Source of the DNA: a virus
DNA length: 41,255 bases
Direction: 5' to 3' (one strand)
Virus record (IMG/VR): IMGVR_UViG_3300031885_000043
Span: 1-41,255 of that record
Both the position numbers and the translations under genes were made by a program. Below, one piece after another: positions 14 through 39,594 of this stretch. How positions within the stretch are numbered: the stretch's first letter is position 1; each line of letters opens with the position of its first letter. The notes under the pieces were generated by a model. The model ran no database searches, was not told where the DNA came from, and saw only the letters and a program-made list of their open reading frames with translations.

Positions 14-66
14 CCCGTCTTTCGCGTGAAAATGGATTTAGAAAAAGCAGTGCCGCAGGGGCGCAC

Positions 67-3208: not shown

Positions 3209-3292
3209 GCAATGCTCAATGCTCAAGGCCCGACGGGGCCCAACAAGCCGCGGCCCAACCGGCTACCGGCTACCGGCTACTGGCTACCAACA
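3197..3292 (+). repeat. ATGCTCA and CCGGCTA heptamer tracts
   Basis: Two unrelated heptamer families lie side by side at a gene junction. ATGCTCA-type units occupy about 3197-3226. CCGGCTA units, with variants such as CTGGCTA, occupy about 3258-3290. Both fall inside the N-terminal codons of the HNH/ParB-like gene and encode low-complexity residues there (SNAQCS, TGYRLLAT). Confidence 0.8.
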
Positions 3293-7949: not shown

Positions 7950-9749
7950 ATGGCCAGGCTGGCCGGCCGGATCGCCGAGGCCGCGGGACAGGCGGCGGGC
8001 AGATTCGACAAGGCCAGGGGCGATGCCCAATCGCAAATCTCAAACCTGTCGGAGAAACCCACCGGCCGACTCGACCACACCTGGAGCGCACGAAACTCCG
8101 CGACGGCGCGCGCCTATGAGGCGGCTATCGAGAACCGCGGCACCGCCGACTGGCGGGCCGGCCTGACCACCGCCACCATGGCGATCATCGAGGGGCTCGA
8201 CACCATGCTCGCCCGAAGCCGCTGGCTCATCCGCAACGACGGCTACGCCGCCAGCGCCCAGGGCGGATACCGGCGCCGAGTCGTCGGCGGCGGGATCACC
8301 GCACGAGCATCGGCGAGAAACCCCGACGGCGGGGCCATGCTCAAGGACTACAACGCCGCGCATGACCTGCTCTGGAACGCGTGGGCCTTGGACCCGCGAC
8401 TCTGCGACGTCGAGCAGACCAAGTGCCTGGCCGAAAAACAGGCCGTCTGGATGGATGAACTCTTCGCCGCCGGCGGACTGCTCCTGCGAGCAGTCTATAC
8501 GCCGCGAAAAGACGCCGTCGGACTGGCCATCCAGGAACTGGAATACGAGCAGCTCGATAAGAGCCTGACGAGCTCCGGCGCCAACGCCGTCTACAACGGC
8601 ATCGAGACCGACGCGTACGGCGCGCCCGTCGCCTACCACGTCTACGCCGCCGCACACCCGCTGGAGGAGATGCCCAGCGCAACGACGCGGCTGCCGGCCG
8701 ACACCTGCTGGCACCTGTTCCGCAAGAGCCGCATCCGCCAGCGGCTCGGGGCACCGATGATGGCCGCCGTCATGCCGGCCCTGCGAAACCTCGCCATGTA
8801 CGAGCTCTACACGCTCAGCAAGGCCCGCACGGAAGCGGCGTACCACGGATTCGTCGAGGAGGCCCCCAACACCAACGCATCCATCGACCAGATCCGACAA
8901 CGCATCAGCGGCAAGCCGCCGACCGGACAAGCCGACAACCCCGACGAGATGCTGGTGCGCGTCGAGAACGGACTCTTCCCCGTGCTCAAGAACGGCCAGA
9001 AGATCTCCTTCCCGACGCCGCAGACGCCCAACAGCGTCTACCCGCAGTACGTCGGCGAGAACCTCAAGAAGATCGCCGCCGGCACGGGGCTGGACCTACC
9101 CACCGTCACGCGATGGTACGCCGACGGCAACTTCAACACACAACGCAAGGCACAGCTCGAGATGGAGGCCGAGTGCGAGGCGATCCAAGACATGCAGTTC
9201 ATCAACGGGGCCCTGCGCGGCATCCGCGAGCTGTGGACTGAGATCGCCGTGGGAGAGCGAAAGCTCAACGCGCCGCGATACGCCGAGGCGCGATGGCGGG
9301 CCGCGTACCTCACCACCAACTGGCAAGGGCCACCCGTGCGCAGCGTCGATGAGATCAAGGACCAGGCCGCCTGGGACATGAAGTACCGCAGCCTGAGGGG
9401 AACGCCACAAGAGTACTGCAACCAGCAAGGGCGCGACATACGCGACCTGCTGAGCGAGTGGCAGGAGTTCTTCGCCATGGCCGAGGAATACGACCTGGGC
9501 GACGTGCTCGATAAGTTCTTCGGCAGCCCCACCGCCAACGCGCCCAAGGCCGGGATGCAGCCCGACGGCACCGGGCCGGGCGGCGAGCCAGGCGACGCGG
9601 GAGGCGCGAGAGGAAACGGGAACCAGGAACCCGGAACCCGGAACAACGGCGACGGCGGGCTCTCGCGGATGATCGTGCGCGAGCAGGTGCTGGCAAGCCT
9701 GCTAGGTGAAGGCGGCGATCACGGCGGCAACGGCGACGGGAGACGATGA
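7950..9749 (+). CDS. Portal protein, lambda gpB family
   Basis: 599-aa portal; twelve copies form the vertex through which DNA enters and leaves the head. ATG at 7950 follows GGCGAGG. A GTG at 7899 is possible but would begin inside the heptamer tract. Lambda-type features are the N-terminal RAYEAAIENRGTADW region, the wing/clip strands (LEYEQLDKS, NAVYNGIETDAYGAPVAYHVY) and PTVTRWYADGNFNTQRKA, comparable to the SYSSARA segment of lambda portals. The C-terminus is Gly/Pro-rich and includes an ACCGGGA-type heptamer tract in frame (NQEPGTRNNG, about 9619-9648). It overlaps the protease gene by 4 nt. Confidence 0.93.
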   Translation: MARLAGRIAEAAGQAAGRFDKARGDAQSQISNLSEKPTGRLDHTWSARNSATARAYEAAIENRGTADWRAGLTTATMAIIEGLDTMLARSRWLIRNDGYAASAQGGYRRRVVGGGITARASARNPDGGAMLKDYNAAHDLLWNAWALDPRLCDVEQTKCLAEKQAVWMDELFAAGGLLLRAVYTPRKDAVGLAIQELEYEQLDKSLTSSGANAVYNGIETDAYGAPVAYHVYAAAHPLEEMPSATTRLPADTCWHLFRKSRIRQRLGAPMMAAVMPALRNLAMYELYTLSKARTEAAYHGFVEEAPNTNASIDQIRQRISGKPPTGQADNPDEMLVRVENGLFPVLKNGQKISFPTPQTPNSVYPQYVGENLKKIAAGTGLDLPTVTRWYADGNFNTQRKAQLEMEAECEAIQDMQFINGALRGIRELWTEIAVGERKLNAPRYAEARWRAAYLTTNWQGPPVRSVDEIKDQAAWDMKYRSLRGTPQEYCNQQGRDIRDLLSEWQEFFAMAEEYDLGDVLDKFFGSPTANAPKAGMQPDGTGPGGEPGDAGGARGNGNQEPGTRNNGDGGLSRMIVREQVLASLLGEGGDHGGNGDGRR

Positions 9750-12286
9750 TGGCGAAAAAGAGAAAGGCTGATTTCTGGGACAGCCGCGAAGCGCGCCTGA
9801 TAGCAGTCCGGCTTGCCAGGTTCGGAGTTCTGCCGGAACCCGTTGTAAGGGGGCTGGTCAAGAACACCATGGCCCAGAGAGCCATCGACCACGGCGTGGC
9901 GCTGAGACGCGGCACGGTGAACCTGGCCGCAATGACGACACCTGATCGCAAATCTCAAATCTCAAGTAGCGTGATCCGCCTCGAGGCCAAGCTGGTAAGC
10001 GGCGAGTTCAGCGTCGACCGCGCAGGGGCCGGTGCCCTGCGAAACGTCAGCATCATCTCCGCCGGGCCGGCCATCGGCCACGGCTTCATCGTCGACGACG
10101 CGATGCTCCAACAGGTGGCGGACGCGATCAACAACTCCCCCAACGGATTCAAGGTCCGACTCGGCCACCCATGGCTCGAGGACGGCGTGTTCTACCGACT
10201 CGGCCGGGCCGTCAAGGGCGCACGCGTCGAGACCACAGCCAACGGCAACAAGGTCCGCGGCGACATCGTCTTCGGCAAGTACGCCGCGAAAAGCCCCAAG
10301 GGCGGCGACCTGGCCGGCTACGTGATGGACCTGGCCGATGAGGACCCGGCGGAACTGGGAGTGTCGATCTCGTTCGAGCCGGACCAATACGAGGAACGAC
10401 TCGACCCCGCGACCGGCGAGCCGATAGCGCCGGCCGGCAGAATCAAGAAACTGCTGGCGGTCGACATCGTCGATGACCCGGCGGCGAACCCCGACGGGCT
10501 GCTCTCCCGGACAAGGGACAGTGGACAGTTGACAATGGACAACGCCGTCACCCCTCCAGTGTCCACTGTCCACTGTCAACTGCCAACTACCACAAACCAA
10601 CCAGGCCGCGAGCATGGACGCTCCGGCATAACCAACGAGCAAGGAGAATCAGACATGAATCTCAACATTAGACAGCGAGCGTACCTCACCTCGTGCGGCC
10701 TGGCAACCGATGCCACCGACGAGCAGATCAAGACCTTCATCACGGAACTCAAGGCCGGCCAGGTGAAGTACCTGACCAGCCTGCAATCCACGGATGAGGA
10801 CAAGACGCCGGCGACGCCGGCCACACCCACTCCGCCGGCCGAGCCGGCCAAGGGCGACACCGACGACGCCGACAAGGCCGCCGAGAAGGCGCTGTCCGGC
10901 GACCGCCAGCGACGCAAGGACATCCTTGCCCTGGCCATCGGCGATAAGCCCGCCGTCAGCCTCGACGCCGCCCAACAGTGGGCCGACGACGGCGTGAGCC
11001 TCGCCGACGCCCGGCGCCTGGCCGAGCTGGCCAAGACGCTGACGCCCATCCCCACCGGCCGCGTCGAGGGCGGAACCGACCGCAACCTGGCAACCATCGC
11101 CGAGGGGATTTCCGACGCACTGCTCCTGAGGGCCGACTGGGGCGGACACGCCAAGCCCCTCATGACCTTTGACCGCTACACCGGCCAGGCCGAACGCGAC
11201 GCCGAGGGCCGAATCATCGCACGCAAGCCCGGCCCGCGAGCCGAGCAGATGCGCCGACACTCCGTGCCGGAACTGGCCAAGCACTACCTCGCCGCCGTCG
11301 GCGTCAGCGGCAATAACCTGTCCGCCATGTCCGGCGGCCAGGTCCTCGAACTGGCGAGCTGCCGCCGCGATCAGTTCGGCCAGCGACTACGCGAGGCCGG
11401 CGGATCCGTCGACCTGGCCATGAGCACCAGCGACTTCCCGTACATCCTGGCCGACGCGATGGGCAAGGTGTTCCTGGGAGGATACAACCTCGCGCCCTCC
11501 ACCGGCCAGCTCTGGACCCGACGCATGACCGCCCGCGACTTCAAGGACGTCAAGCTGCTGAACCTCTCCGACGCCCCGGCCCTTCAGAGCCGGGCCGAGG
11601 GACAGGGCATCTCGTTCGGCACGATGTCCGAGAGCCGCGAGGTCGTCGCCCTGGCCGAGTACTCCAGCGGCCTGATCTGGACCCGACGAGCACAGATCAA
11701 TGATGACCTCGGCGTCCTGCGAGACGGCGGGGCAATGGCCCTCGGCGCGATGGCCCGCTACAAAGAGGACGACGTGGTCTACGCCATCCTCACCGCCAAC
11801 GCCGCCCTTGCCGACGGCATCGCCCTGTTCTACGCCACGCACGGCAACATCTCCAGCGGGGCAAGCACCGCCGTCTACGCGGCGGCCGCGCCGGGCGTGC
11901 ACCCGACCATCGTGCAGCTCTTCCTGGAGTCCGAACAGGCCCCCGTGATGAAGCAGGAAGTGCTGTGGGACACCGACGACCTCAAGGTCGCCGTCCGGCA
12001 CAGCGTGGCCGCCAAGGCCGCCGACTACCGCGGCCTGTACAAGGACCTCACCGGCAATGCCACCGTTGCCAGCCTGGCGCTCATCGTCCAGGCCATGGCC
12101 ATCCAAACGGCGCCCGGCGGGGCGTTCCTGAACCTCCGCCCGACCTTCATCCTCTGCCCAGCGGGAGTCAGTCAGGTGACCTGGTCGCAACTCGTCGGCT
12201 GCAGCGTGGACCCGGCCAAGAACAACGCGACCAACAACCCGTTCTTCAACCAGCTCACCGTCATCGGCGAGCCGAGACTCAACTAA
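9746..12286 (+). CDS. Prohead protease-major capsid protein composite
   Basis: 846-aa open frame. Residues about 75-255 resemble Mu gpI-type prohead protease/scaffold (IGHGFIVDDAMLQQVADAIN, GVSISFEPDQYEER, VDIVDDPAANPDGL). Residues about 310-450 are a charged scaffold-like region (TPATPATPTPPAEPAKGD). Residues about 470-846 match the HK97-fold capsid protein of Mu gpT type (STSDFPYILADAMGKVFLGG, RARINDDLG-like RRAQINDDLGVL, YAILTANAALADG). Protease and capsid parts are linked by TTGACAR/TGGACAR repeat sequence in both orientations (residues 256-282). A strong internal ribosome-binding site and ATG at 10655 suggest the scaffold-capsid part is also made separately. Fused protease-capsid frames are known in phages; the repeat linker is the odd part. 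Confidence 0.9.
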   Translation: MMAKKRKADFWDSREARLIAVRLARFGVLPEPVVRGLVKNTMAQRAIDHGVALRRGTVNLAAMTTPDRKSQISSSVIRLEAKLVSGEFSVDRAGAGALRNVSIISAGPAIGHGFIVDDAMLQQVADAINNSPNGFKVRLGHPWLEDGVFYRLGRAVKGARVETTANGNKVRGDIVFGKYAAKSPKGGDLAGYVMDLADEDPAELGVSISFEPDQYEERLDPATGEPIAPAGRIKKLLAVDIVDDPAANPDGLLSRTRDSGQLTMDNAVTPPVSTVHCQLPTTTNQPGREHGRSGITNEQGESDMNLNIRQRAYLTSCGLATDATDEQIKTFITELKAGQVKYLTSLQSTDEDKTPATPATPTPPAEPAKGDTDDADKAAEKALSGDRQRRKDILALAIGDKPAVSLDAAQQWADDGVSLADARRLAELAKTLTPIPTGRVEGGTDRNLATIAEGISDALLLRADWGGHAKPLMTFDRYTGQAERDAEGRIIARKPGPRAEQMRRHSVPELAKHYLAAVGVSGNNLSAMSGGQVLELASCRRDQFGQRLREAGGSVDLAMSTSDFPYILADAMGKVFLGGYNLAPSTGQLWTRRMTARDFKDVKLLNLSDAPALQSRAEGQGISFGTMSESREVVALAEYSSGLIWTRRAQINDDLGVLRDGGAMALGAMARYKEDDVVYAILTANAALADGIALFYATHGNISSGASTAVYAAAAPGVHPTIVQLFLESEQAPVMKQEVLWDTDDLKVAVRHSVAAKAADYRGLYKDLTGNATVASLALIVQAMAIQTAPGGAFLNLRPTFILCPAGVSQVTWSQLVGCSVDPAKNNATNNPFFNQLTVIGEPRLN
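9946..9967 (+). repeat. AAATCTC heptamer units inside the protease
   Basis: CGCAAATCTCAAATCTCAAG is an in-frame run of 7-bp units encoding RKSQISS. A related partial run is at 8033-8044 in the portal gene. Confidence 0.5.
10510..10590 (+). repeat. Mirror-image heptamer tract inside the protease-capsid frame
   Basis: Forward units (TGGACAG, TTGACAA, TGGACAA) at 10518-10541 are followed after about 15 bp by reverse-complement units (TGTCCAC, TGTCCAC, TGTCAAC) at 10559-10582. The two arms can pair. No stop codon falls in frame, so the tract is translated as a linker. Confidence 0.85.
10641..10657 (+). promoter_or_regulatory. Internal RBS and start for the scaffold-capsid protein
   Basis: AAGGAGA is followed after 7 nt by ATG at 10655, in frame. 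Initiation here would give a 543-aa scaffold plus capsid protein beginning MNLNIRQRAYLT. It is one of the better ribosome-binding sites in the window, as expected for the most abundant virion protein. Confidence 0.7.
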
Positions 12287-12347: not shown

Positions 12348-12444
12348 AGAACACGCCCACCCGCCGGGCTTTTTGAGAATTGGCGGGCGCGGAACCGGCA
12401 GCGCATACGCCGGCACGAAAACCAACACGCACGGAGATCGAGAC

Positions 12445-14133
12445 ATGAAAACGTATCGCGGAGAAACAAGACGCGTACTGTACGCCAACGCCGGAGCAGC
12501 CATCCTCAGCGGAGCCGTGGTCCCCTTCGGGTCCATGATCGGAATCGCGGTGACCGACATCGCGGCGAGCACCGGCTCCGGCATGGTCGAGGTCGAGGGC
12601 CGGCATAACCTGGCCGCCACGGCCCTGGATGTCTGGGCCCAGGGCGACCTGCTGTACTGGAACACCAGCACCAAGAAGCTGACCACCACCGCGCAGTCCC
12701 TCATCGCCGGGCACGCCGCGACCGCCAAGGCCACCCTGATCGCCACGGCCGACGTGCTGCTGGCCCGCACGGCCCTCAACGCCAGCGTGGCCGACAGCGT
12801 CGTCGTCGGGGCAATCACCGGCAGCGACTCCAGCCTGGGCATCGCCGGCATCGCCGGCAGCAGCGGGGGCGGCGGCGCCGTGGCAATCGTCGGCGGGGCC
12901 GGCGATAGCGGGGCCGGCGGGGCAACCAGCCTCACCGGCGGGGCCGGATCGGCCGCCGTGGGCGGGGCATCCAGCGTCGTCGGCGGGGCCGGCGGCGCGG
13001 CCTCGGGCGGCGGAGTGGCCTCCCTGACCGGCGGGGCCGGCGGGACAACCAGCGGCATCGGCGGGGCCGCAAGCGTGACCGGCGGGGCCGGCACGGGCAC
13101 CGGGGCCGGCGGGGCCACCACCATCGCCGGCGGAGCCTCCGGGACCGGGTCAATCGGCAACGGCGGCGCCGTGGCCATCAACGGCGGGGCCGCAACATCG
13201 ACGGCTGGAACAGGCGGAGCGATCACGATCACAGCCGGCGTCGGCACGACGACGGGCCTTGGCGGCGCGGTCACCACCGTATCGGGCGCCGGCGGCAATA
13301 CCACTACCGGCACGGGCGCGGCCGGCGGCGCGATTGCCACCACATCCGGCGTCGGCGGAAACGCCACTACCAGTGGTACGGGCGGCGCCGGCGGCGCGAT
13401 TGCGATCACGACCGGGGCCGGCGGCACGACGGCAACCGGCACTGCCGGCGCCTCGGGCGCACTTACCCTGGCGACCGGGGTCGGCGGCGCGGCATCGGGA
13501 ACCGATGGTGACGGCGGGGCCGCGGGCGCCATAGCCATCACCGGCGGCGTCGGCGGAGCGGCGGCAGGAGCCGCGACCTGTGTTGGCGGGGCCGGATCGG
13601 CGGTCACGATCACGGCCGGGGCCGGCGGCGCGGCTAACGCTTCCGGCAATACCAGCGGGGCCGGCGGATCAATCATCCTGGCCGCCGGGGCCGCGGGCGC
13701 GAGCAGCGGCGGAACGGTCGGCGTCGCGGGCATGATCCGGACGCAGAGCCGAATGTCGTCAATGGCCACCGTCACCGCGAAAACGACCGCCGCGACGCTG
13801 ACCATCGCGGAACTGCTGACCGGAATCCTGACCGGCACGCATACCGTCGGAGCGACTCAGGCGTACACGCTCCCGACCGGCACGTACATGTCGGCCGGCT
13901 GCGCGTGCGGCGACGGCGAAGGCTTCGAGTGGTCGCTGATCAACCTGTCGGCGGCGGCGGCCGATTCGATCACCGTCACTGCCGGCGCTGACCATACCAT
14001 CGTGGGCCCGGCGATCGTGATTTCCGTTCATTCCTCGACGGGCGGCGCGATCACCTCGCAAGGGGTCTCCTCCAGCCGCTGGTACTCGCGGAAGACAACG
14101 GCCAACACCTGGGTGACCTACCGGCTCGGGTAA
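12445..14133 (+). CDS. DUF2190-like decoration protein with glycine-rich head-fibre domain
   Basis: 562-aa protein. ATG at 12445 follows GGAGATCGAGAC; an upstream ATG at 12373 lacks a good site. Residues 1-110 resemble DUF2190 capsid decoration proteins (NAGAAILSGAVVPFGSMIGI, GDLLYWNTSTKKLTTT). Residues about 128-435 are a low-complexity array of GGAG, GGAA and TGG units in short beta-like steps. Residues about 440-562 form a distinct globular end (EWSLINLSAAAADSITVTAG, SRWYSRKTTANTWVTYRLG). A DUF2190 base on the capsid carrying a Gly-rich shaft and terminal knob would be a head fibre. The shaft could adopt a polyglycine-type or triple beta-helical fold. It follows the capsid gene, where decoration proteins usually lie. 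Confidence 0.78.
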   Translation: MKTYRGETRRVLYANAGAAILSGAVVPFGSMIGIAVTDIAASTGSGMVEVEGRHNLAATALDVWAQGDLLYWNTSTKKLTTTAQSLIAGHAATAKATLIATADVLLARTALNASVADSVVVGAITGSDSSLGIAGIAGSSGGGGAVAIVGGAGDSGAGGATSLTGGAGSAAVGGASSVVGGAGGAASGGGVASLTGGAGGTTSGIGGAASVTGGAGTGTGAGGATTIAGGASGTGSIGNGGAVAINGGAATSTAGTGGAITITAGVGTTTGLGGAVTTVSGAGGNTTTGTGAAGGAIATTSGVGGNATTSGTGGAGGAIAITTGAGGTTATGTAGASGALTLATGVGGAASGTDGDGGAAGAIAITGGVGGAAAGAATCVGGAGSAVTITAGAGGAANASGNTSGAGGSIILAAGAAGASSGGTVGVAGMIRTQSRMSSMATVTAKTTAATLTIAELLTGILTGTHTVGATQAYTLPTGTYMSAGCACGDGEGFEWSLINLSAAAADSITVTAGADHTIVGPAIVISVHSSTGGAITSQGVSSSRWYSRKTTANTWVTYRLG

Positions 14134-14249
14134 CAGTTGACAATTGACAGTTGACAATTGACAGCGGCGAGCCGGGGTCAGTTGACAGTTGACAATTGAT
14201 AATTGACAGCGGCGAGCCGGGGTCAGTTGACAGTTGACAATTGACAGTC
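14134..14249 (+). repeat. Heptamer tract with 45-bp higher-order repeat
   Basis: TTGACAA/TTGACAG units are interrupted twice by the same insert, AGCGGCGAGCCGGGGTCAG, at 14163 and 14208, giving a 45-bp period. Forward TTGACAR units here carry TGA in every frame. Confidence 0.9.
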
Positions 14250-14317
14250 ACAAGGCTTCGGGGCTTGCGGCGAACGGTTCACCGCAAGCCCCGAGGCAAA
14301 CAACGCAAGGAGTACGC

Positions 14318-15040: not shown

Positions 15041-15784
15041 ATGCGCGGCACCGTAAAGTGGTTCAACGAGAAAAAGGGCTATGGGTTCATCACCGGCGAG
15101 GATGGAGTCGATGCTTTCGTGCACCTCCACGCCCTGGGCGATGACGCCGACGCCGGCGACATGACCGAGGGCCGCAACGTCGAGTTCGAGACCGAACAAG
15201 GCCCCAAGGGCCCGCGGGCCAAGGGCGTCAAGCTGCTGGCGATCCTTCTGCTGGCGGCGGCCGGCGCCCTGGGCATGTCGACGACGGCGGGATGCTCCGG
15301 GCTCCAGGCCCGCGGCCCGATGACGGCCACCATTGACACCAACGCACAGCTTGCCGAAGAGATTCGGCCGCAGGCTCTTGTCGGCGCCCTGACGGTCGAC
15401 CAGTGCATCGTGACGCTGGCGGAGAACTCCGCGAAGTTTGACTGCTACGCCCTGGCCCGCACAACCAACTGGTTTGCCTACGCTTTCGGCGATAAGACGA
15501 TCTGGTGTACGCCGACCTACGCGAAATCAAAGAGGCGGTCAAGCCGCCCCAAACGGCGGCAAAACCTAAGAAGACCGAACATGAATGAGATAGGAAAGGA
15601 CCCGTTGGGTTGCGGTGATTTCCATTTGGAAGATGGAATATATTTCGGCCGGCGCGAAAAAGGAGCCGTCATCATTTACCGCAAGCCCACGGATTCCTCG
15701 GAGCCGGAGATTCTGGTGCAGACCGACGCGGACGGTTGGAGTTCGGTGGTCCAATCTATGTCCTCCTATGGTAAACGCCCATGA
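15041..15784 (+). CDS. Cold-shock domain fused in frame to a lipoprotein-like sequence
   Basis: 247-aa frame with RBS AAGGAG. Residues 1-66 are a complete cold-shock domain, a single-strand nucleic-acid-binding fold, with RNP1 KGYGFI (12-17) and RNP2 DAFVHL (24-29). Its normal end, GVKLL, runs directly into LLAILLLAAAGALGMSTTAGC (residues 64-85, given here to show the junction in two overlapping parts), a typical lipoprotein signal with lipobox Cys85. A small soluble region follows. The junction looks like a deletion between two KLL-coding stretches that joined two genes. Near 15500 the best-looking coding frame shifts by -1 (YADLREIKEAVKPP, stop at 15586-15588). The last 67 residues are probably a separate gene starting at 15581. 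Whether the fusion is functional or decaying is unclear. Confidence 0.6.
   Translation: MRGTVKWFNEKKGYGFITGEDGVDAFVHLHALGDDADAGDMTEGRNVEFETEQGPKGPRAKGVKLLAILLLAAAGALGMSTTAGCSGLQARGPMTATIDTNAQLAEEIRPQALVGALTVDQCIVTLAENSAKFDCYALARTTNWFAYAFGDKTIWCTPTYAKSKRRSSRPKRRQNLRRPNMNEIGKDPLGCGDFHLEDGIYFGRREKGAVIIYRKPTDSSEPEILVQTDADGWSSVVQSMSSYGKRP
15581..15784 (+). CDS. Small hypothetical protein (C-terminal part of the composite frame)
   Basis: 67-aa protein starting MNEIGKDPLGCGDFHLEDGI, in frame with the cold-shock composite but probably an independent gene. Its start overlaps, by 8 nt, the TGA that ends the -1 frame of the lipoprotein part (15586-15588). The ribosome-binding site (AAGAAGACC) is modest. 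The sequence is a compact beta-rich unit (GIYFGRREKGAVIIYRKP, ILVQTDADGWSSVVQSM). The stop overlaps the next small frame (ATGA). Function unknown. Confidence 0.5.
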   Translation: MNEIGKDPLGCGDFHLEDGIYFGRREKGAVIIYRKPTDSSEPEILVQTDADGWSSVVQSMSSYGKRP

Positions 15785-21250: not shown

Positions 21251-21468
21251 TGGACAATGGACAATTGACAATGGACAGTGGAGGCAATGGACAGTGGACA
21301 ATGGACAATTGACAATGGACAGTGGAGGCAATGGACAGTGGACAATGGACAATTGACAATGGACAGTGGAGGCAATGGACAGTGGACAATGGACAATTGA
21401 CAATGGACAGTGGAAAACGGAGCCGGATTGGCCGGCGAACTGTCAATTGTCAACTGTCAACTGTGAAT
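21251..21468 (+). repeat. Heptamer tract with 44-bp higher-order repeat and inverted end
   Basis: TGGACAA, TGGACAA, TTGACAA, TGGACAG units with the marker TGGAGGCAA at 21279, 21323 and 21367 form three 44-bp copies. Reverse-complement units (TGTCAAT, TGTCAAC, TGTCAAC) follow at about 21441-21462, giving a mirror-image tract upstream of the minor tail gene. Confidence 0.9.
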
Positions 21469-21476
21469 TGAAAAAC

Positions 21477-22133
21477 ATGGCACTGGTGAACATCAATATC
21501 GGGCTGACGGAAGCCAAGCTGGCGGAAATCAACGCCATGCTGGACGGTGTGCCCATGGGCTTCCAGCGAGCCTTGAGCAGGGCGATCAACAAGGTCGGCG
21601 TCGCGGCCCGCACGCAGGTACTGCGGATGATCGTGAAGGAGATCAACGTCACGCAGACGGAACTCCGCGACAAAAACATCCGCTTCCGCCGCGCGAGCTT
21701 TGACAAGCTGTTCGCCATTCTGGAGGTCAAAGGCAATCGCATCCCCCTCATCAAGTTCGGCGCACGCCGGACGAACAAGGGCGCCAGCTATGCGATCCGC
21801 CGCGGGCAACGAACCGTCGCCCCCCACTCGTTCCTGCAAACCATGAAAAGTGGACACCGCGGAGTGTACTTGCGGACCGGCGAGCCAACGCTCGGGCGAC
21901 GACTCCGCCGGGGCCGCGGACCCGGATCCGGCATGGCGGGATTGGTGCGCCCGCGATTCCCGATCACCGAACTGGCGGGGCCATCCGTGCCGCAGGTGGT
22001 GATCGACGCGGAAGAGTTTGCCAACGGGACATTCGAGCGGCTGATGGGAGAAAAACTGGAAAGCGAAACGGATGTCCAGGTGGGACTGATTCTGGAGAGG
22101 CATGGAAAGGAAGCCAATGCGGCGCCGTTCTGA
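21477..22133 (+). CDS. Minor tail protein Z-like (tail completion)
   Basis: 218-aa protein resembling prophage minor tail protein Z. In lambda this protein acts at the head-proximal tail end and is needed for joining-competent tails. Family features: FQRALSRAINKVGVAARTQV, the IRFRRASFDKLFAILEVKGN strand and RIPLIKFGARRTNKGASYAI, followed by FLQTMKSGHRGVYLR. ATG at 21477 is preferred because everything upstream in frame is heptamer-encoded. The gene ends back to back with the minus-strand HTH gene. The C-terminal 60 residues are acidic and helical. Confidence 0.85.
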   Translation: MALVNINIGLTEAKLAEINAMLDGVPMGFQRALSRAINKVGVAARTQVLRMIVKEINVTQTELRDKNIRFRRASFDKLFAILEVKGNRIPLIKFGARRTNKGASYAIRRGQRTVAPHSFLQTMKSGHRGVYLRTGEPTLGRRLRRGRGPGSGMAGLVRPRFPITELAGPSVPQVVIDAEEFANGTFERLMGEKLESETDVQVGLILERHGKEANAAPF

Positions 22134-22355
22134 TTACAACTTGGCGAGCCGCAGCCGACGGCCGAGGGCCTGCGCGGCGTACCGGGCCAGCGTCTCAATG
22201 CCCGTGTCGGCGGCGCCGCTCTCCATCTCGCTGATGGTCTGCTGGCTGATCGCCGGGCTGCATGCCGCCCCGGCGGCTGCCTGCGAAAGGCCGAGCTCGG
22301 CACGCCTGGCGGACAGGGCCGCCCTTACCTCCGCCGTGCTGTCGGGCGATTTCAT
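22134..22355 (-). CDS. XRE-type HTH regulator
   Basis: 73-aa DNA-binding protein, second gene of a minus-strand operon that starts with the ligase; the intergenic gap is 4 nt. A Cro/C1-type helix-turn-helix covers about residues 20-60: ELGLSQAAAGAACS, then SQQTISEMESGAADTGIETL. As the only regulator in the operon it is the natural candidate to bind the palindrome in the operon's own promoter (23037-23054). It has no C-terminal oligomerisation domain. It could also be an antitoxin-like protein, but the partner is a ligase domain rather than a toxin. Confidence 0.8.
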   Translation of the reverse strand: MKSPDSTAEVRAALSARRAELGLSQAAAGAACSPAISQQTISEMESGAADTGIETLARYAAQALGRRLRLAKL

Positions 22356-22359
22356 GGCA

Positions 22360-23028
22360 TCATACCTCCAGGCCGCAGGGGATGTCGGTTTGCAGGCTGT
22401 TGGCGTGTATGGGCTTGATCTTGAAAATGGCCCGTTCCTCCAGGCCGCAACGGCCGTGGCGATAGGGGCCGTCCGGGCGGCGGATAATCAGACCCTCGCC
22501 GCCACGCAGGCGGACCTCGCGGTACAGTCGGCAGAGGTCCGGCCAGGCCGCCAACGGCCGCTGCTCCAGGACCGCGACGTGCTCGATGCCGGACAGCAAC
22601 CCGAGGGCACGCTCGTGGCGGGCCAGGAACGGCGTGACGGCATCGCCCTCGAACTCGCCGTAGTCCACCGCGTCAAAAACCAGGTATTGCAGACCGGACA
22701 AGTCGCCGGCCGTGGCGAACAGCCGGTCTTGAATCTCACGCGGGGCCAGGCCGGGAATCCAGAACTCGCCGTCGAGCACCAGGTTGCCCTTGTCGGCGAC
22801 TGCCTGAAGTTCAGCCAAATAGCCGGGCAACGCCTTGGCCCGCCAGGTGCATCCGCTCCGCGACCGGCTGCCGAAGCCGGGGTAAACCAGGTTTCGCACC
22901 CCGTCAATCTTCTCACTGGCCAGGACGGGCCAGCCGATCTCCCAGGCGTGCGGCACGCGGGTGGGGGCCAACATGCACTGCCGCAAGGTCGGCGGGGCGA
23001 TCCCAATGGTTATCATAACCCGGTCCAT
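22360..23028 (-). CDS. ATP-dependent DNA ligase, adenylation domain only
   Basis: 222-aa nucleotidyltransferase of the ATP-dependent ligase superfamily. Motifs in order: I KIDGVR with adenylated Lys40; III LDGEF at 85-89; IIIa FDAVDY at 119-124; IV EGLIIRR at 178-184; V KIKP at 203-206. The protein stops 16 residues after motif V, so the C-terminal OB-fold present even in small ligases (about 270 aa or more) is missing. It may need a partner, seal only special nicks, or be a decayed copy. The ATG at 23028 is fixed by the promoter: -10 ends 6 nt upstream, so the mRNA should be leaderless. It lies antisense inside the tail block with its own promoter, like a moron. Confidence 0.85.
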   Translation of the reverse strand: MDRVMITIGIAPPTLRQCMLAPTRVPHAWEIGWPVLASEKIDGVRNLVYPGFGSRSRSGCTWRAKALPGYLAELQAVADKGNLVLDGEFWIPGLAPREIQDRLFATAGDLSGLQYLVFDAVDYGEFEGDAVTPFLARHERALGLLSGIEHVAVLEQRPLAAWPDLCRLYREVRLRGGEGLIIRRPDGPYRHGRCGLEERAIFKIKPIHANSLQTDIPCGLEV

Positions 23029-23034
23029 GTTGTC

Positions 23035-23063
23035 ATTATCGCCAAGAGGCGATAAGAAGTCAA
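23035..23063 (-). promoter_or_regulatory. Promoter of the ligase-HTH operon, leaderless
   Basis: Reading the minus strand, -35 TTGACT (23063-23058), a 17-bp spacer and -10 GATAAT (23040-23035) each match the sigma70 consensus at 5 of 6 bases. Only 6 nt (GACAAC) separate the -10 from ATG at 23028, so transcription should begin at about the A of the start codon. Confidence 0.75.
23037..23054. promoter_or_regulatory. Candidate operator palindrome
   Basis: TATCGCC-AAGA-GGCGATA is a perfect 7+4+7 inverted repeat covering the promoter spacer and part of the -10 of the ligase-HTH operon. A repressor bound here would block RNA polymerase. The HTH protein of the same operon is the likely ligand, giving autoregulation; this is inference. 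Confidence 0.65.
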
Positions 23064-23083: not shown

Positions 23084-23566
23084 ATGCCCGAAACACTGAG
23101 CGTCAAGGAACAGATCACGGCGGCCGTGGCAACCGCCCTGGAGGCGATCTCCGTCGCCAACGGATACCAGATCGACGTGGGAGAGGTCGTCAGGCCCCGG
23201 CGAACCGGCGAAAACTACGCCCCGCAGGCCTATGGAATCTCCGTCTTGCAGGGTGCCGAGGAGCCGTCGACGGGAATCGAGCCGTCGACCAATCCGCCAC
23301 TCATCGCCTGGGACTTGCAGATTCAATGTGACTGCATGATCCGCCTCAGTGAGGCCAGCACCACACCAATGGACAAGGCCCTCAATGCATTCGAAGCATC
23401 TGTCCGCAAGTGTCTGATGGTCAACCAGAATTGGGGCGGCCTGGCCCTTTACACGGTGCTCGGGCCGACCATATACCCCGCGGCCAACACCGGCGTCGAG
23501 GGCGTAACCGTGATGGCGTATATCACGTACCAAGTGAGTGAACTTGACCCGTATGAACAGAGATGA
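23084..23566 (+). CDS. Tail terminator/completion protein-like
   Basis: 160-aa protein, start divergent from the ligase promoter, with an AT-rich 50-bp gap between. The fold pattern matches tail-terminator proteins: an N-terminal helix (SVKEQITAAVATALEAISVA), then strands with LIAWDLQIQCDCMIRL, a helix (DKALNAFEASVRKCLMV) and a final strand VTVMAYITYQVSELDPY. Position between protein Z and the tail tube agrees with lambda gene order (Z, U, V). No strong ribosome-binding site is seen. The stop is in or next to the first repeat unit of the following tract. Confidence 0.65.
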   Translation: MPETLSVKEQITAAVATALEAISVANGYQIDVGEVVRPRRTGENYAPQAYGISVLQGAEEPSTGIEPSTNPPLIAWDLQIQCDCMIRLSEASTTPMDKALNAFEASVRKCLMVNQNWGGLALYTVLGPTIYPAANTGVEGVTVMAYITYQVSELDPYEQR

Positions 23567-23675: not shown

Positions 23676-24596
23676 ATGAAACTGGGCAAGATCAGACTCG
23701 TGCGGATCGGAATCGAGGCGTCCGGCAAGGGCGTCGCTTCCTCCGCCATCACGACCGAATGCCTGTGCTACGACCCTGAGCCCAAACGCGATGACAACTA
23801 CATCCCCCGCGAGGCGGCCTTCGGCCTGGCCGGCACCATGAAGGGCTGCCGCGGACCCTCCACCGGCAAGATCACCATCCGCCGGCACCTGACCGGCAAC
23901 GGCTCCACCGGCCTGTCAGCCGCCGACACCGTGCTGCTCCAGGCCTGCGGGATGCTGCTGAGCACCCTGAAGTTCACGCCGGAGACCGATATCGCCGACC
24001 AGAAGACCATCACCATCGACTGCTGGCGCGATGGGCACAAGGAACGACTCACCGGCTGCATGGGAACCTGGAGCATGGAGGCCGAGGCCGGCAAGCCCGT
24101 GATGATGACCTACGAGCTGTCCGGCAAGTATGAGGACCTCGGCGATGAGGACACCCCAACCGCCTCGGTCGATAAGACCCTGCCGTTCAAGGGCGCCAGC
24201 GCCACGTTCACCATCGACGGCAAGGGCATCGGCATCAACAAGTTCACCCTGGCCGCCAACAACCCCGTCGTGATGCGCGAAGATATCGCCGCCGCCGGCG
24301 GGTTCCTGTATTTCTTCATCGGCGCGGGCAGAAACTACAAGGCCATCGCCGACCCGGAAGTCGAACCCGTCGCCACGTGGGACCCCTCAGCCATCAGCGA
24401 GGCCGGCACCGAGGCGGCACTGAGCATCATCGTCAAGGACGCCACAACCAAACTCACCATCGCGGCGGCGGCCTGCGAGATACTGCCGACCAACGTCGGG
24501 GTCCGCGGCGAGACGCTCATCTGGGATGCCCTGAACATCCAGATCAACGCGACTACCAAGGACGCGGAGATGTCCATGGAGTCGGCGGCGGTGTAA
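23676..24596 (+). CDS. Major tail tube protein
   Basis: 306-aa protein with RBS AGGAGAGCAAG. Alternating strands and the tube-like core (TGKITIRRHLTGNGSTGLSA, TGCMGTWSMEAEAGKPVMMTY, YELSGKYEDLGDEDTPT) are typical of siphovirus tail tube subunits. The C-terminal part (ITTKLTIAAA-like KDATTKLTIAAAACEI and INATTKDAEMSMESAAV) forms a second beta domain. It lies directly upstream of the G/GT chaperone pair, exactly as in lambda (V, G, GT, H). Family assigned from fold pattern and order. Confidence 0.78.
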   Translation: MKLGKIRLVRIGIEASGKGVASSAITTECLCYDPEPKRDDNYIPREAAFGLAGTMKGCRGPSTGKITIRRHLTGNGSTGLSAADTVLLQACGMLLSTLKFTPETDIADQKTITIDCWRDGHKERLTGCMGTWSMEAEAGKPVMMTYELSGKYEDLGDEDTPTASVDKTLPFKGASATFTIDGKGIGINKFTLAANNPVVMREDIAAAGGFLYFFIGAGRNYKAIADPEVEPVATWDPSAISEAGTEAALSIIVKDATTKLTIAAAACEILPTNVGVRGETLIWDALNIQINATTKDAEMSMESAAV

Positions 24597-29933: not shown

Positions 29934-30065
29934 TCACGGCACGGGAATGTACCCGAGCTTGCACCAGACGATGGCGATCTGGACGCCGATCACAACCATG
30001 CAGCCGGCGGCGACGATAAGGACGGCCAGCAAGGCACAGTAGGAAATGTATAAAGCAATCTTCAC
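29934..30065 (-). CDS. Short leaderless membrane peptide
   Basis: 43-aa minus-strand gene. It starts GTG at 30065, six nt downstream of a perfect TATAAT, and encodes one hydrophobic helix (LLAVLIVAAGCMVVIGVQIA) with a KLGYIPVP tail. A lipobox-like AAGC lies within the helix. It fits in the gap between two + strand tail genes. A moron-like membrane peptide, for instance one that modifies the host envelope, is plausible but unproven. The promoter gives better support than the protein itself. Confidence 0.6.
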   Translation of the reverse strand: MKIALYISYCALLAVLIVAAGCMVVIGVQIAIVWCKLGYIPVP

Positions 30066-30071
30066 GCCCCG

Positions 30072-30100
30072 ATTATAGGCGCACCGGGGCCAAAAGGCAA
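30072..30100 (-). promoter_or_regulatory. Promoter of the 43-aa gene, leaderless
   Basis: Minus strand: -35 TTGCCT (30100-30095, 4 of 6), 17-bp spacer, -10 TATAAT (30077-30072, 6 of 6), then 6 nt (CGGGGC) to GTG at 30065. The spacing of -10 to start codon is identical to the ligase promoter. Confidence 0.72.
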
Positions 30101-31337: not shown

Positions 31338-31434
31338 ATGCTCAATGCTCAATGCTCAATGCTCAATGCTCAATGCTCAATGCTCAATGCTCAATGCTCA
31401 ATGCTCAATGCTCAATGCTCAATGCTCAATGCTC
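31338..31434. repeat. Perfect (ATGCTCA)13 array
   Basis: Thirteen identical ATGCTCA units followed by ATGCTCG. It overlaps the 3' end of the minus-strand gene, where the reverse complement TGAGCAT supplies the stop codon at 31421-31419. Perfect identity, unlike the degenerate TTGACAR tracts, points to recent expansion or active homogenisation. Confidence 0.97.
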
Positions 31435-31928
31435 GCGTGCCCGGGCGGAGTGGCGACCAGGGCCATTATCAACGCCACCAGCCAGACGATGGGGATGAAC
31501 ACGCCGAGGATACCAAGCGTGTTGATCCCGTCGGCGTTGGCAAGCCCGCGAGATCGGGCAACCGCGCCGGGGATCGCCGCAAACGCGATGACGGCACAAA
31601 GGCCCATCGCCGCCATGGCGAGCATCCATAGCAGCTCGGTGTACCGCCAAGGCAACGCCGCCGCCGCGACAATCCCCAACAAGCCAAATAGCAACGCCGC
31701 CAGCGCAAACCCCCAAATCAGCTTGCGGGCGCTGGACTGAGCCTGCCGCACACGCTCGGCATGGGCCGACGCAACTCTGTCCGAATACCAGCCCGCCGGG
31801 ACATCCGGCTTGTATGGGCCGGGCACGGGCACGAGGGTGCGGCAGGTGGGACATGCCTCGAACTGGCCGACGAGACTGTCGGGGACGGACATCTCCTGCT
31901 TGCAAATCTGACACGCGAATCTAATCAT
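31419..31928 (-). CDS. Zinc-ribbon membrane protein
   Basis: 169-aa protein, second gene of a minus-strand operon (ATGA overlap with the lipoprotein). RBS AAGGAG upstream of ATG 31928. Residues 1-35 contain CQIC and CPTC, a zinc ribbon. After a linker there are three probable transmembrane helices at about 70-95, 100-122 and 140-162 (LIWGFALAALLFGLLGIVAA; WMLAMAAMGLCAVIAFAAIP; LGVFIPIVWLVALIMALVAT). Its last codons (SIEH, stop) are repeat-derived, so length may vary with repeat number. Role unknown; perhaps a superinfection-exclusion or envelope protein of a lysogen. Confidence 0.7.
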   Translation of the reverse strand: MIRFACQICKQEMSVPDSLVGQFEACPTCRTLVPVPGPYKPDVPAGWYSDRVASAHAERVRQAQSSARKLIWGFALAALLFGLLGIVAAAALPWRYTELLWMLAMAAMGLCAVIAFAAIPGAVARSRGLANADGINTLGILGVFIPIVWLVALIMALVATPPGHASIEH

Positions 31929-32230
31929 GGTTTCTCCTTTGGAGTGGTAGCCGGTAGCCGGCAGCCGGGAGCCGGTTGGGCGCCGGCGGCACGCAGACAG
32001 GCCCGGCATGGCTTGTAGCCCTCGGCCAGGGCGTCGGCGAGGTGATCGAACGACACGCGATTGGCGGGACTGGCGCGGCCAATATGACCGCAGCCGGCCT
32101 TGTGAACGGTGTGAGTGGTGCGGGTGCCGACGTACGACGGGGCCGTCGCGGGGCCGCTCCGGCTGCATCCGGCGACGACCCCCGCCAGCAAAAACAACGC
32201 GACAAACAGGATTCGATTCCCGTTTCCCAT
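31925..32230 (-). CDS. Lipoprotein with Cys-rich metal-binding-like domain
   Basis: 101-aa protein. Signal: MGNGNRILFVALFLLAGVVA then GC with lipobox VAGC (Cys22 region). The mature part contains TVHKAGCGHIGRA and EALAEGYKPCRACLR-like ALAEGYKPCRACLR, resembling the small Cys-pair domain seen in Ada-like metal-binding or nuclease-associated modules. The C-terminus (APGCRLPATTP) is encoded by TAGCCGG-type heptamers (31948-31977). ATG at 32230 lies 6 nt after a perfect TATAAT, so the mRNA should be leaderless. A surface lipoprotein expressed from its own promoter would fit a lysogenic-conversion gene; that is inference. Confidence 0.7.
   Translation of the reverse strand: MGNGNRILFVALFLLAGVVAGCSRSGPATAPSYVGTRTTHTVHKAGCGHIGRASPANRVSFDHLADALAEGYKPCRACLRAAGAQPAPGCRLPATTPKEKP
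31948..31977 (-). repeat. TAGCCGG heptamer tract
   Basis: TAGCCGG, TAGCCGG, CAGCCGG, GAGCCGG units encode the C-terminal residues of the lipoprotein on the minus strand. It is the reverse complement family of CCGGCTA at 3258 and 7515. Confidence 0.75.
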
Positions 32231-32236
32231 GGCCAG

Positions 32237-32264
32237 ATTATACCACGGCGTTTGCGAGTAACAA
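32237..32264 (-). promoter_or_regulatory. Promoter of the lipoprotein operon, leaderless
   Basis: Minus strand: -35 TTGTTA (32264-32259, 4 of 6), 16-bp spacer, -10 TATAAT (32242-32237), 6 nt (CTGGCC), ATG at 32230. Third instance of the same -10 to start distance. Confidence 0.72.
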
Positions 32265-32381: not shown

Positions 32382-32603
32382 ATGGTGGCACAACCGCAAT
32401 TCGATCCGACTCCGGTGATCCGGGCCATGGCCATCAAGGGCTACAAGCTCGAGACGCTCGCCGCGAAGGCGGGCTGCTCGATCAACGCCATCTGGAAAAT
32501 CACCAACAACAAAGCCACGCGCCCCAAATACCTGCACAAGGTCTGCAAGCTCCTCGGCGTCGCCGTCGAGGACTGCTACCCGCTGCCGGAAACCGCAAAA
32601 TGA
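32382..32603 (+). CDS. Cro/C1-type HTH regulator
   Basis: 73-aa protein that is essentially a single helix-turn-helix domain: VIRAMAIKGYKLETLAAKAG, then CSINAIWKITNNKATRPKYL and KVCKLLGVAVEDCYPLP, matching the XRE pattern with a recognition helix around residues 30-40. It is divergently transcribed from the lipoprotein operon. It is the best candidate for a lysogeny or early-gene regulator in the window, although it lacks a cleavable C-terminal domain. The weak site AACAGGGACAGGC precedes its ATG. Confidence 0.8.
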   Translation: MVAQPQFDPTPVIRAMAIKGYKLETLAAKAGCSINAIWKITNNKATRPKYLHKVCKLLGVAVEDCYPLPETAK

Positions 32604-36359: not shown

Positions 36360-37354
36360 AAAAAGGCAATGCCAAGAATGCCAAGAACGCCGAGAACGCC
36401 GAGAAGGACGAGGCCAGCGTCACGCTATCGAGCGGCGGTGAGTCTGTGACGGTTTCCGAGAAGACCTTCAAGGGCGTATGCGCCGGCTTTCTTGGCCTGG
36501 CCCGACGCGCCGGGGCGGAAGGGGAAACCCCCAACATCATCGCCCCGGCCGTGCCGCCGACGGAAACGGGAAACGAGACCATCGGCCCGGCGTGCCTCGA
36601 GCTGCGGCAGATCGCCCAGGGGCTCATCGACGTGGTCCGCGAGCACCGCCACCTCCAGGATGCACGGATCCTGCTGCTGGTAGTCGAGAAGCCGGCGATG
36701 GAAAAAAAACTTGCCGAGGGCAAGCAAGTGTCCATCGGCAAAGCGGCCAAGGCGCGGACCCTGGATCGGCTGCTGTCCAGCGTGAAGACCCTCGATGACT
36801 GGAGGCTTGATGACGACGGTGTTGAACAGGCGCACTACGAGCGGGCCGACTTCATCATCCAGCTCAACGGCGACTGGCTGGAGGCGATAGGCTGGCCGCT
36901 GACCGACGGCAGCGAAGATATCGCCCTGGCCCAGATAGACCATGAGCTCTGCCACTGCGGGGCCAAGATCGCCGGCGAGTTCATCAAGCCGGCAGAGCTG
37001 GCCGAGAGGGTAGAGGCGCTCGGCGATGACCACATTGAAACGTGCGAAGATGTGGTGCGCGACGGGGCCATCCTGGTCCGCTACTACTGGCGCGGCGAAA
37101 GCGGCGCCTACAAGTGGGCTACCCGCAAGCACGACGTCGAGGAGTTCCACGGCGTCGTCGAGCGGCACGGCGCCTGGGACAGCCAGTTGACGAAACTGGT
37201 CGACGTCCTGGTCGAGCGCGAGGACCTCCCGCTGCTGAGGGAAGTTGACAGTGGACAGGGGACAGTGGACAGCGAAAAGAGATCGGCGGCGGGGGCACTC
37301 ATGATCGGCCAGCGTCTTGCTGACCGGCTCGCCGGCGTTGGACAAGCGAATTGA
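36356..37354 (+). CDS. Putative phage metallopeptidase
   Basis: 332-aa protein; GTG start overlaps the preceding stop (GTGA). Residues 5-18 are encoded by a 9-mer repeat (NAKNAKNAENAEK). The central region carries HELCH at 196-200 (AQIDHELCHCG), a zinc-metalloprotease HExxH motif, with HDVEEFHGVVERHG at 259-272 downstream providing further ligands. This arrangement matches the putative phage metallopeptidase domain family. No signal peptide is seen, so it should act in the cytoplasm, for example on a host or virion protein. The C-terminal part contains TGGACAG-type repeat residues (VDSGQGTVDSEK). Confidence 0.8.
   Translation: MKKGNAKNAKNAENAEKDEASVTLSSGGESVTVSEKTFKGVCAGFLGLARRAGAEGETPNIIAPAVPPTETGNETIGPACLELRQIAQGLIDVVREHRHLQDARILLLVVEKPAMEKKLAEGKQVSIGKAAKARTLDRLLSSVKTLDDWRLDDDGVEQAHYERADFIIQLNGDWLEAIGWPLTDGSEDIALAQIDHELCHCGAKIAGEFIKPAELAERVEALGDDHIETCEDVVRDGAILVRYYWRGESGAYKWATRKHDVEEFHGVVERHGAWDSQLTKLVDVLVEREDLPLLREVDSGQGTVDSEKRSAAGALMIGQRLADRLAGVGQAN
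36363..36405 (+). repeat. In-frame 9-mer repeat
   Basis: GGCAATGCCAAGAATGCCAA then GAACGCCGAGAACGCCGAGA are 9-bp units (AATGCCAAG / AACGCCGAG) encoding NAKNAKNAENAE near the N-terminus of the metallopeptidase. Confidence 0.75.
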
Positions 37355-37440
37355 TTCGCCTTAGCGAAGTCGCCGCGGCGGACTGTCAGACAATCAAACC
37401 ACGTGAAACGGGAACCACACCAAACCACAAGGAGCACACG

Positions 37441-39594
37441 ATGGCACGCAAGAGCAAGAGCACGAGCAAACCGACGGAGTCACATCCAATGCACGAGGCA
37501 CGTCATACCATCGACACGGGCAAGCTCGACACGGCAGCGCTGTCCACTGTCAATCCTCCATTGCCCATTGCCGCCCGCCCCCCGCACGCGGACCTGACGC
37601 TAGTCGAGATCGGCTCGATCGACGCCGGCCGCAACCTGCGGACCGCAATCGGCGAAGATACGCTGCCGGGCCTCCAGGACTCCATCCGCGAGCTCGGCCA
37701 ACTCCAGCCGATCATCGTGCGGCAGGCCGGCAACGAGCTGAGGCTCATCGCCGGACACCGACGACTGGAGGCGGCCAGGCGGGCCGGCGAGAAGTACATC
37801 GAGGCCCGCGTCTACGCCGGCGACGGCGCTACCGACCTGTGGGAGGCGAGGGCCCGGCTGGCCGAGAACGTACAACGGCTGGACCTGAACCACATCGAAC
37901 TGGCCGGGGCCTACGGCCAGGCCGCCGACGCCGGCCTGAGCGTGCGAGAGATCGCAGAGGGCGCACACGTCAGCGACGACCACGTCCGCCGCCACCTGGC
38001 CCTGCGAAGACTCTGCCCGAGCGTGGCGGAACTCGCGGCCAGCGGAAGGCTGCCCGTACAGCAGGCGGAACTCATCGCCCGAGTCGGAGATCCGGCCAGG
38101 CAGATCGGACTGGCCGGGAACGCCACGCGGCTGGTCTGGGAATCATCGCCGGGGGTATGGCGGACCCGAGCCGCGGGCAGGTGGCGCGGCGGCAAGCTCG
38201 TGACCGACGCGGAGCAGGATGTCGACGACCGCGATTTTGTCGAGCCGATGGAGTCGCTCCGCGCCGAGGTCGGGCGATGCATGCGGGGCATGGCAGCCTG
38301 CGGCTGGCCGAAGGATGAGCAGTACGCCGGCAGGCGGGCCTGCGCCGGCTGCCCGGACAACACGCTGACCTACAGCGACCAGCCGAAGCTCTTCGAGGGC
38401 ATCGAGCCGCAAGGCTCCGCCAAGAAGGGCCACTGCACCAACGAGGAATGCTATGAGGCCAAGCGGACCGCGTGGGACAAAGAGCGGGCGGCCAGGAAGA
38501 AGCAGATCGAGGCCGAGCAGAAGAGGGCGATCACCAAGGCGAAGTCCGCCGGACTCGCCGTGTGCGCGGCCGACGGCTGCGCCAAGGTCCTGGCATCGGG
38601 CCAGCAGCTCATCATGGTCGACGGCGCCGGCATGTGCCCGGCGTGCGCCGCCAAGGCCAAGAAAAGCGGCGAACGAGGCGGCGTCGGTGGACGTGGTGAG
38701 AGCTGGGAGGCGAGAGAGAAACGCGCCAATGCGGCGAAAAAACGATTCCCCGAAACGCCCGAGCAGCGGCTGGCGGTGGCGCTGCACAAACACGGCGTGG
38801 CACTGGGCGAGATGATCGGGACGGCGATTGCCGAGGGGCGAACCGGCGCCGAGAGCGACTGCCGCAACGTGGCCGAGATGGTGATCTGGGCGATGGGGCT
38901 TTGCGCCGACTATTACGATTACGTGTTGCCGCGGGGAAACCGGCCCGCAATCGATGATGTGCTGGGCGCGGGGATCTCCGATGCCGACCACGCCGCCTGG
39001 TGGAACGTCGCGATCGGCGGCGTGCTGGCGGATGCGCCGGGCCTCGAATACGTCGGCACAGAACGCAACGTGCCGCTTCCGGCGGCGGAAATCGCGATCA
39101 TCGGCGACCTGGAGCGGCTGGCCAAGGCGTGCGGACTGGAAGTGCCGGTCCGCCCAACGGCGGAAGTCGACAGTGGACAATTGCCGAAGTACGCCGCCGC
39201 TAAGGCGGTAGCCGGGAAGCCGAAGAAACGGCAAGGGACCAACGCAGAGCACGCAGAGCACGCAGAGGGAGAGAAAGACGAGGATGCCAAGCCGGCGGCG
39301 AACTTCTTCTGCACGCGGGATTGCCACGGCTGCCCCGTTGGCTGCGCCACACCCGGCGACTTCCACGAACGGATGCGGAACGCCATCGTCTCGGGCAAGA
39401 GGGCCGAGGCCGAGCCGGCGATAGAGCGGTGCGCGGACCTGGCGTTCCTGAAGGAGGCCAAGGCAAAGGGCCTCAAGGGCGACTGGCGACGCGCGGCGGT
39501 CGCCAAGCGGATCGACCAGCTTCGAGAAGATGCGGCTGTGGCCGCCGACCGCGAGGCGTTCCTCGACGACGACCGGGCCGGCGACGACCTATGA
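37441..39594 (+). CDS. Large ParB/RepB-like DNA-binding protein
   Basis: 717-aa protein; RBS AAGGAG before ATG 37441. A ParB N-terminal domain spans about residues 50-160 (LVEIGSIDAGRNLR; LQDSIRELGQLQPIIV; LIAGHRRLEAARRAGE, the GxRR box; RLAENVQRLDLNHIELA). A helix-turn-helix follows at about 165-190 (LSVREIAEGAHVSDDHVRRH). The long C-terminal part has Cys clusters (CAGCPDN, CTNEEC, CPACAAK, CTRDCHGCPVGC). Heptamer-derived (ALSTVNPPLPIA; DSGQL) and 9-mer-derived (NAEHAEHAEGE) segments are in frame. ParB-like proteins partition plasmid-prophages or regulate genes; no ParA is present in the window, so either role is open. Confidence 0.82.
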   Translation: MARKSKSTSKPTESHPMHEARHTIDTGKLDTAALSTVNPPLPIAARPPHADLTLVEIGSIDAGRNLRTAIGEDTLPGLQDSIRELGQLQPIIVRQAGNELRLIAGHRRLEAARRAGEKYIEARVYAGDGATDLWEARARLAENVQRLDLNHIELAGAYGQAADAGLSVREIAEGAHVSDDHVRRHLALRRLCPSVAELAASGRLPVQQAELIARVGDPARQIGLAGNATRLVWESSPGVWRTRAAGRWRGGKLVTDAEQDVDDRDFVEPMESLRAEVGRCMRGMAACGWPKDEQYAGRRACAGCPDNTLTYSDQPKLFEGIEPQGSAKKGHCTNEECYEAKRTAWDKERAARKKQIEAEQKRAITKAKSAGLAVCAADGCAKVLASGQQLIMVDGAGMCPACAAKAKKSGERGGVGGRGESWEAREKRANAAKKRFPETPEQRLAVALHKHGVALGEMIGTAIAEGRTGAESDCRNVAEMVIWAMGLCADYYDYVLPRGNRPAIDDVLGAGISDADHAAWWNVAIGGVLADAPGLEYVGTERNVPLPAAEIAIIGDLERLAKACGLEVPVRPTAEVDSGQLPKYAAAKAVAGKPKKRQGTNAEHAEHAEGEKDEDAKPAANFFCTRDCHGCPVGCATPGDFHERMRNAIVSGKRAEAEPAIERCADLAFLKEAKAKGLKGDWRRAAVAKRIDQLREDAAVAADREAFLDDDRAGDDL
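39238..39268 (+). repeat. In-frame 9-mer repeat (ACGCAGAGC)
   Basis: ACGCAGAGC, ACGCAGAGC, ACGCAGAGG units encode NAEHAEHAE inside the ParB-like protein. Confidence 0.8.

Follow-up and report, generated by a model that had tools for sequence, protein, structure and literature searches.

In phage PY54 the cI and cro mRNAs start at the AUG, as mapped by RACE, and the lambda cI mRNA transcribed from PRM is likewise leaderless (PMC4488713). In bacteria, Zheng et al. 2011 described how leaderless operons pair a leaderless first gene with SD-led distal genes (PMC3160421), and a –10 motif of leaderless genes has been described in Deinococcus-Thermus (PMC12340547). The three minus-strand modules that we describe here, all from one phage, share features with each of these systems. 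Like lambda cI and PY54 cI and cro, they combine a phage gene, a sigma-70 type promoter and an mRNA start, here predicted, at the start codon, but their leaderless cistrons encode a ligase, a 43-aa membrane peptide and a lipoprotein and not repressors. As in the TA-led genes of bacteria (PMC3160421; PMC12340547), the –10 begins about 12 bp ahead of the start and only the operon-proximal genes would be leaderless; however, TA-led genes represent a genome-wide host mode, whereas here the architecture belongs to three modules of one phage and includes –35 boxes.

The modules lie in IMG/VR virus record IMGVR_UViG_3300031885_000043, 41,255 nt of virus DNA with a G+C content of 61-71% that we analyzed as a whole and refer to as the window. 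Its genes identify it as a tailed phage encoded on the + strand in a long gene array, with the following landmarks:

665-2872, + strand, terminase large subunit (phrog_15, E 5e-110)
9746-12286, + strand, capsid/protease fusion
12373-14133, + strand, head decoration
21366-22133, + strand, neck/tail-completion (phrog_27, E 3.5e-30)
23084-23566, + strand, tail terminator (a weaker match than the neck)
23676-24596, + strand, minor tail protein (a weaker match than the neck)
32382-32603, + strand, Cro/C1-type HTH gene, 73 aa, divergent from the lipoprotein operon

Single-protein scans gave no matches for the terminase, the neck protein or the ligase, for which alignments were needed, and no Rfam family was matched within the window. 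In L151, a fragment whose portal is 71% identical, the counterparts of the last and first window genes (39726-41225 and 67-681) are direct neighbors in that order, which makes it probable that the record is circularly permuted and close to complete. Two ParB-like proteins (3067-4653 and 37351-39594), one with an HNH-like stretch and the other long with cysteine-rich parts, have no recognized ParA alongside. A cold-shock domain protein with a long C-terminal extension (15041-15784; Pfam CSD, E 2e-19) stands among the virion genes.

The three modules and their predicted signals are:

22134-22355, – strand, XRE/Cro-type HTH protein, 73 aa, SD-led second cistron
22360-23028, – strand, ATP-dependent ligase nucleotidyltransferase, 222 aa, predicted leaderless
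22365-22369, – strand, SD GGAGG of the HTH cistron
23035-23040, – strand, –10 GATAAT of the ligase-HTH promoter, 6 nt ahead of ATG
23036-23055, no strand assigned, perfect inverted repeat TTATCGCC-4-GGCGATAA spanning the spacer and the –10, candidate operator
23058-23063, – strand, –35 TTGACT of the ligase-HTH promoter, 17-nt spacer
29934-30065, – strand, 43-aa hydrophobic, single-TM-like protein with a GTG start, between two + strand genes
30072-30077, – strand, –10 TATAAT of the 43-aa gene, 6 nt ahead of GTG
30095-30100, – strand, –35 TTGCCT of the 43-aa gene, 17-nt spacer, overlapping the SD region of the + strand gene at 30111
31419-31928, – strand, zinc-ribbon membrane protein, 169 aa, SD-led second cistron whose start overlaps the lipoprotein stop (ATGA)
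31925-32230, – strand, lipoprotein, 101 aa, with an Ada-like Zn-binding domain and a signal peptide with lipobox VAGC, predicted leaderless
31934-31939, – strand, SD AAGGAG of the second cistron
32237-32242, – strand, –10 TATAAT of the lipoprotein operon, 6 nt ahead of ATG
32259-32264, – strand, –35 TTGTTA of the lipoprotein operon, 16-nt spacer, AT-rich tract upstream

A sequence-only reading of this DNA had proposed that the –10 elements at 23028, 30065 and 32230 (GATAAT, TATAAT and TATAAT) are followed by exactly 6 nt and then by ATG, GTG and ATG, and the sequences are as described: TTGACT-17-GATAAT, GACAAC and ATG at 23028, TTGCCT-17-TATAAT, CGGGGC and GTG at 30065, and TTGTTA-16-TATAAT, CTGGCC and ATG at 32230, all on the minus strand. 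At –1/+1 the promoters read CA, CG and CA, a C followed by the purine that opens the start codon, and C at –1 with a purine at +1 is a preference of RNA polymerase. TATAAT occurs twice on the two strands of the window, each time exactly 6 nt upstream of a start codon. When one mismatch is allowed, TATAAT-N6-ATG is found 3 times versus 0.92 expected, a count reached in 6 of 100 shuffles; by itself, the short pattern of –10 and start codon is mildly unusual, only mildly above chance. The composite motif TTGNNN-(16..18)-[TG]ATAAT-N6-[AG]TG, with an ORF of 40 or more codons behind it, has 3 occurrences in the window, whereas 400 third-order Markov simulations averaged 0.0025 and never reached 2; these figures are to be taken as a guide, since the motif was written after the three sites were known. 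These counts bear on the idea that AT-rich module boundaries mimic promoters and that the spacing is a product of looking. The post hoc definition of the motif and the modest excess of the short pattern are in keeping with it, but the composite count and the use of both TATAAT hexamers of the window at the same distance from a start make it highly improbable. Candidate promoters at 33415, at 29223 and at many + strand sites were discarded, as they arise from TTGACAATGGACA-type repeats. Dispersed TTGACAATGGACAGTGGACA-type repeats are numerous between + strand genes and within N-termini throughout the window and yield false sigma-70 promoter matches.

Anti-SD pairing separates the first cistrons of the modules from the second. 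The ligase, 43-aa and lipoprotein genes give –1.9, –3.0 and –2.8 kcal/mol, against a random background median of –2.8, and the second cistrons pair strongly (HTH –10.6 and Zn-ribbon –8.7 kcal/mol). Because of the promoter geometry, the pyrimidine/purine pair at –1/+1 and the absence of an SD from first cistrons and its presence on second cistrons, transcription of all three modules from the start codon, as had been proposed, is the best reading and a well-supported prediction. Two hallmarks of TA-led genes are seen in the sequence: the first –10 base lies 12 bp from the start codon at all three sites, and a first cistron without an SD is followed by distal cistrons with one. The accompanying statement that ribosome-binding sites serve every + strand gene is largely right, with a median of –5.85 kcal/mol, but SD pairing is absent at 23084 (0.0 kcal/mol) and weak at 32600 and 35079. 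The modules had further been called a distinct expression class, perhaps with a different ribosome requirement. They are the only independently promoted minus-strand modules visible in the window, and to that extent the description holds; however, leaderlessness concerns the first cistron only, the second being SD-led, and follows from promoter position. Therefore no separate ribosome requirement is implied for the modules, and that part of the proposal is dropped.

The ligase matches phrog_114 (E 4.5e-27), and its sequence and an alignment with a phage ligase show all the nucleotidyltransferase motifs (KxDG, LDGE, FD, EGLIIR and KIK). It has no C-terminal OB-fold and ends just past motif V, whereas its phage relatives (261-289 aa) continue; a fold predicted without an alignment was uninformative (pLDDT 36). 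Its matches in Planctomycetota were remote ligases of the ordinary kind, with no recognizable ligase-HTH pair. Its start codon is less sure than that of the lipoprotein because ligase homologues begin nearer Met19 of the window protein, close to an MLA motif, and a start there would give a 54-nt leader. This raises an alternative in which genuine promoters yield mRNAs that in effect have a leader, with translation beginning at ligase Met5 or Met19 and the ATG at 6 nt being incidental, and the chance of one such ATG is indeed not negligible given the 3 versus 0.92 of the short pattern. However, ligase codons 1-18 are coding-like and resemble the remainder of the gene (GC3 0.83), no SD is seen by eye ahead of Met19, the lipoprotein start is set by its signal peptide, and the same coincidence would be required three times. 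We regard a downstream start as unlikely and retain the leaderless reading.

The HTH gene begins 4 nt after the ligase, and a ligase-HTH pairing between neck and tail-terminator genes is unusual. The HTH protein belongs to HTH_3 (E 2.9e-7). The palindrome at 23036-23055 (8+8 bp, TTATCGCC-AAGA-GGCGATAA) occurs once in the window, and we infer that it is probably an operator of the co-transcribed 73-aa HTH protein, autorepression being the simplest reading. It has the layout TATCG-N8-CGATA, which we take to be that of the HipB operator. The module thus resembles HipB/Y4mF-type antitoxins in its small HTH_3 protein and candidate autoregulation, but the match to TIGR03070 (Y4mF/HipB antitoxin) is far under the cut-off (23 versus 71.65 bits) and the HTH protein is paired with a ligase instead of HipA. 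On the + strand, the repeat additionally creates a GATAAG box upstream of the tail-terminator gene at 23084, and the palindrome may possibly be common to a divergent promoter toward that gene. The tail-terminator gene, directly beyond the promoter of the module, is the one clear + strand gene without any SD pairing, and the insertion seems to have parted it from its former upstream context.

The sequence-only reading had also suggested that the pattern helps to find very short genes, and it does pick out a credible candidate, the 43-aa gene. G+C by codon position in its frame is 0.52/0.39/0.80 (p 2e-4), a bias equaled in 13% of shadow ORFs of the same size. Its –35 partly overlaps a + strand SD region and may be in part coincidental. 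In the lipoprotein operon, the short signal peptide ending in VAGC fixes the start of the first cistron. Among its cellular homologues, an SD precedes the gene in L444 and L448, and no TATAAT lies at 6 nt in L446 and L460. Many Planctomycetota proteins share the Zn-binding domain of the lipoprotein in their C-terminal part, and several of these have, by eye, thermonuclease-like N-terminal parts (..FHRxxC..NRVxF..GYxPCxxC). Tandem ATGCTCA heptamers (an MLNAQCS repeat) occupy 31338-31435, just past the operon.

Comparison with relatives indicates how the modules may have arrived. In the sister phage IMGVR_UViG_3300009285_007532 (49% G+C) the neck (13165-13806) abuts the tail terminator (13808-14284), and the two genes are likewise adjacent in a more distant relative, G012; in the window, 950 nt occupied by the antisense ligase-HTH operon separate them. 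The gap housing the 43-aa gene measures 187 nt in the window versus about 54 nt in the sister phage. At the position of the lipoprotein operon, the sister phage carries a gene whose translation looks integrase-like by eye, together with two minus-strand genes and an HTH gene, and this region is rearranged too far to call an insertion. Insertion is thus documented for ligase-HTH in two relatives and for the 43-aa gene in one. The 6-nt spacing has no orthologous counterpart in the relatives examined, which lack the modules, and the repressor promoter of the sister phage has a spacing of 9 nt. With promoters of their own, an antisense direction and no counterpart in relatives, the modules agree with the definition of morons (PMC2629481) and with the description of antisense loci with their own promoter (PMC7067206), and moron-like antisense insertions are therefore their best reading. 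The ligase-HTH and 43-aa modules interrupt an operon that is contiguous in relatives, and the promoters are predicted from sequence only. The classical description of a moron includes its own terminator, and no clear intrinsic terminator was found downstream of any of the three modules. They resemble phage morons (PMC2629481; PMC7067206) in having their own promoters, apparently inserted into a conserved operon and antisense to late genes, but differ in that no terminators were detected; a temperate lifestyle of this phage, and the lysogen expression dispensable for lytic growth that characterizes morons, are conjectural here.

Across IMG/VR, an ORF of at least 40 aa follows 90 of the 135 sites listed for TTGACA-17-TATAAT-N6-ATG and 27 of the 118 listed for the N10 spacing (Fisher p 2e-12), these being fractions among the matches listed and not totals. 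Among 57 products led by an N6 promoter, the commonest families are primases, exonucleases, NAD-dependent DNA ligases, dCMP deaminases and other DNA-metabolism proteins. Judging by these ORF fractions and products, the N6 architecture is widespread in phages and associated with early functions. This bears on a further proposal, in which the modules form a coordinated regulon expressed in the prophage and leaderless translation would suit them to stress or stationary phase. The leaderless repressor mRNAs of lambda cI and PY54 cI/cro (PMC4488713), the frequent antisense orientation and independent transcription of prophage accessory loci relative to lytic genes (PMC7067206) and the two HTH genes of the window speak for it. 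However, no tyrosine integrase or resolvase was found within the window, though the sister phage has its integrase-like gene, an operator-like palindrome is present at one promoter only, and the same architecture leads early replication genes in other viral contigs. A lysogen-specific class seems to us rather unlikely.

Planctomycetes have few SD genes and show signals of leaderless or S1-dependent initiation (PMC5397173). In 43 low-background Planctomycetota genomes, TATAAT-N6/N10/N30-ATG occurs 221/178/135 times, with 57/70/37 in reversed controls; the leaderless spacing is somewhat commoner, a modest class that does not dominate. The portal profile is found in 60 of 392 Planctomycetota genomes, and of 384 genomes 33 have homologues of the Zn-lipoprotein and 52 of the Zn-ribbon protein, this being the only phylum searched. 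Planctomycetota as the host of the phage is a lead.

A unifying model, which we consider probable as a whole, is that of moron-like modules with host-type sigma-70 promoters and leaderless first cistrons. Each module would bring its own promoter into the + strand array, and the preferred start, 6 nt past the –10 with C at –1 and A/G at +1, would fall on the initial nucleotide of the start codon. Translation would then be leaderless for the first cistron and, in the ligase-HTH and lipoprotein-Zn ribbon operons, would use an SD site for the second. Unmodified host RNA polymerase would transcribe the modules antisense to the + strand operon and without depending on it, and the HTH protein, bound to the palindrome that spans the spacer and –10, would probably autoregulate the ligase-HTH promoter. 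We infer the actual start sites, translation, expression timing and autoregulation from the sequence.

The principle of leaderless mRNA has long been known, and the general interest of these modules is modest. It is a distinctly doubtful idea that antisense cargo in this phage group shares the signature because it was recruited or selected to rely on the host polymerase and on 70S ribosomes, apart from the phage's regulatory programme, such that a –10, six bases and a start codon on the minority strand would mark cargo, even very short genes. Our analysis highlights a ligase-HTH module, probably autoregulated, that lies as an insertion between two conserved genes of the virion, and the architecture would provide a testable rule for short, independently expressed cargo genes in high-G+C phages, where TATAAT is rare.
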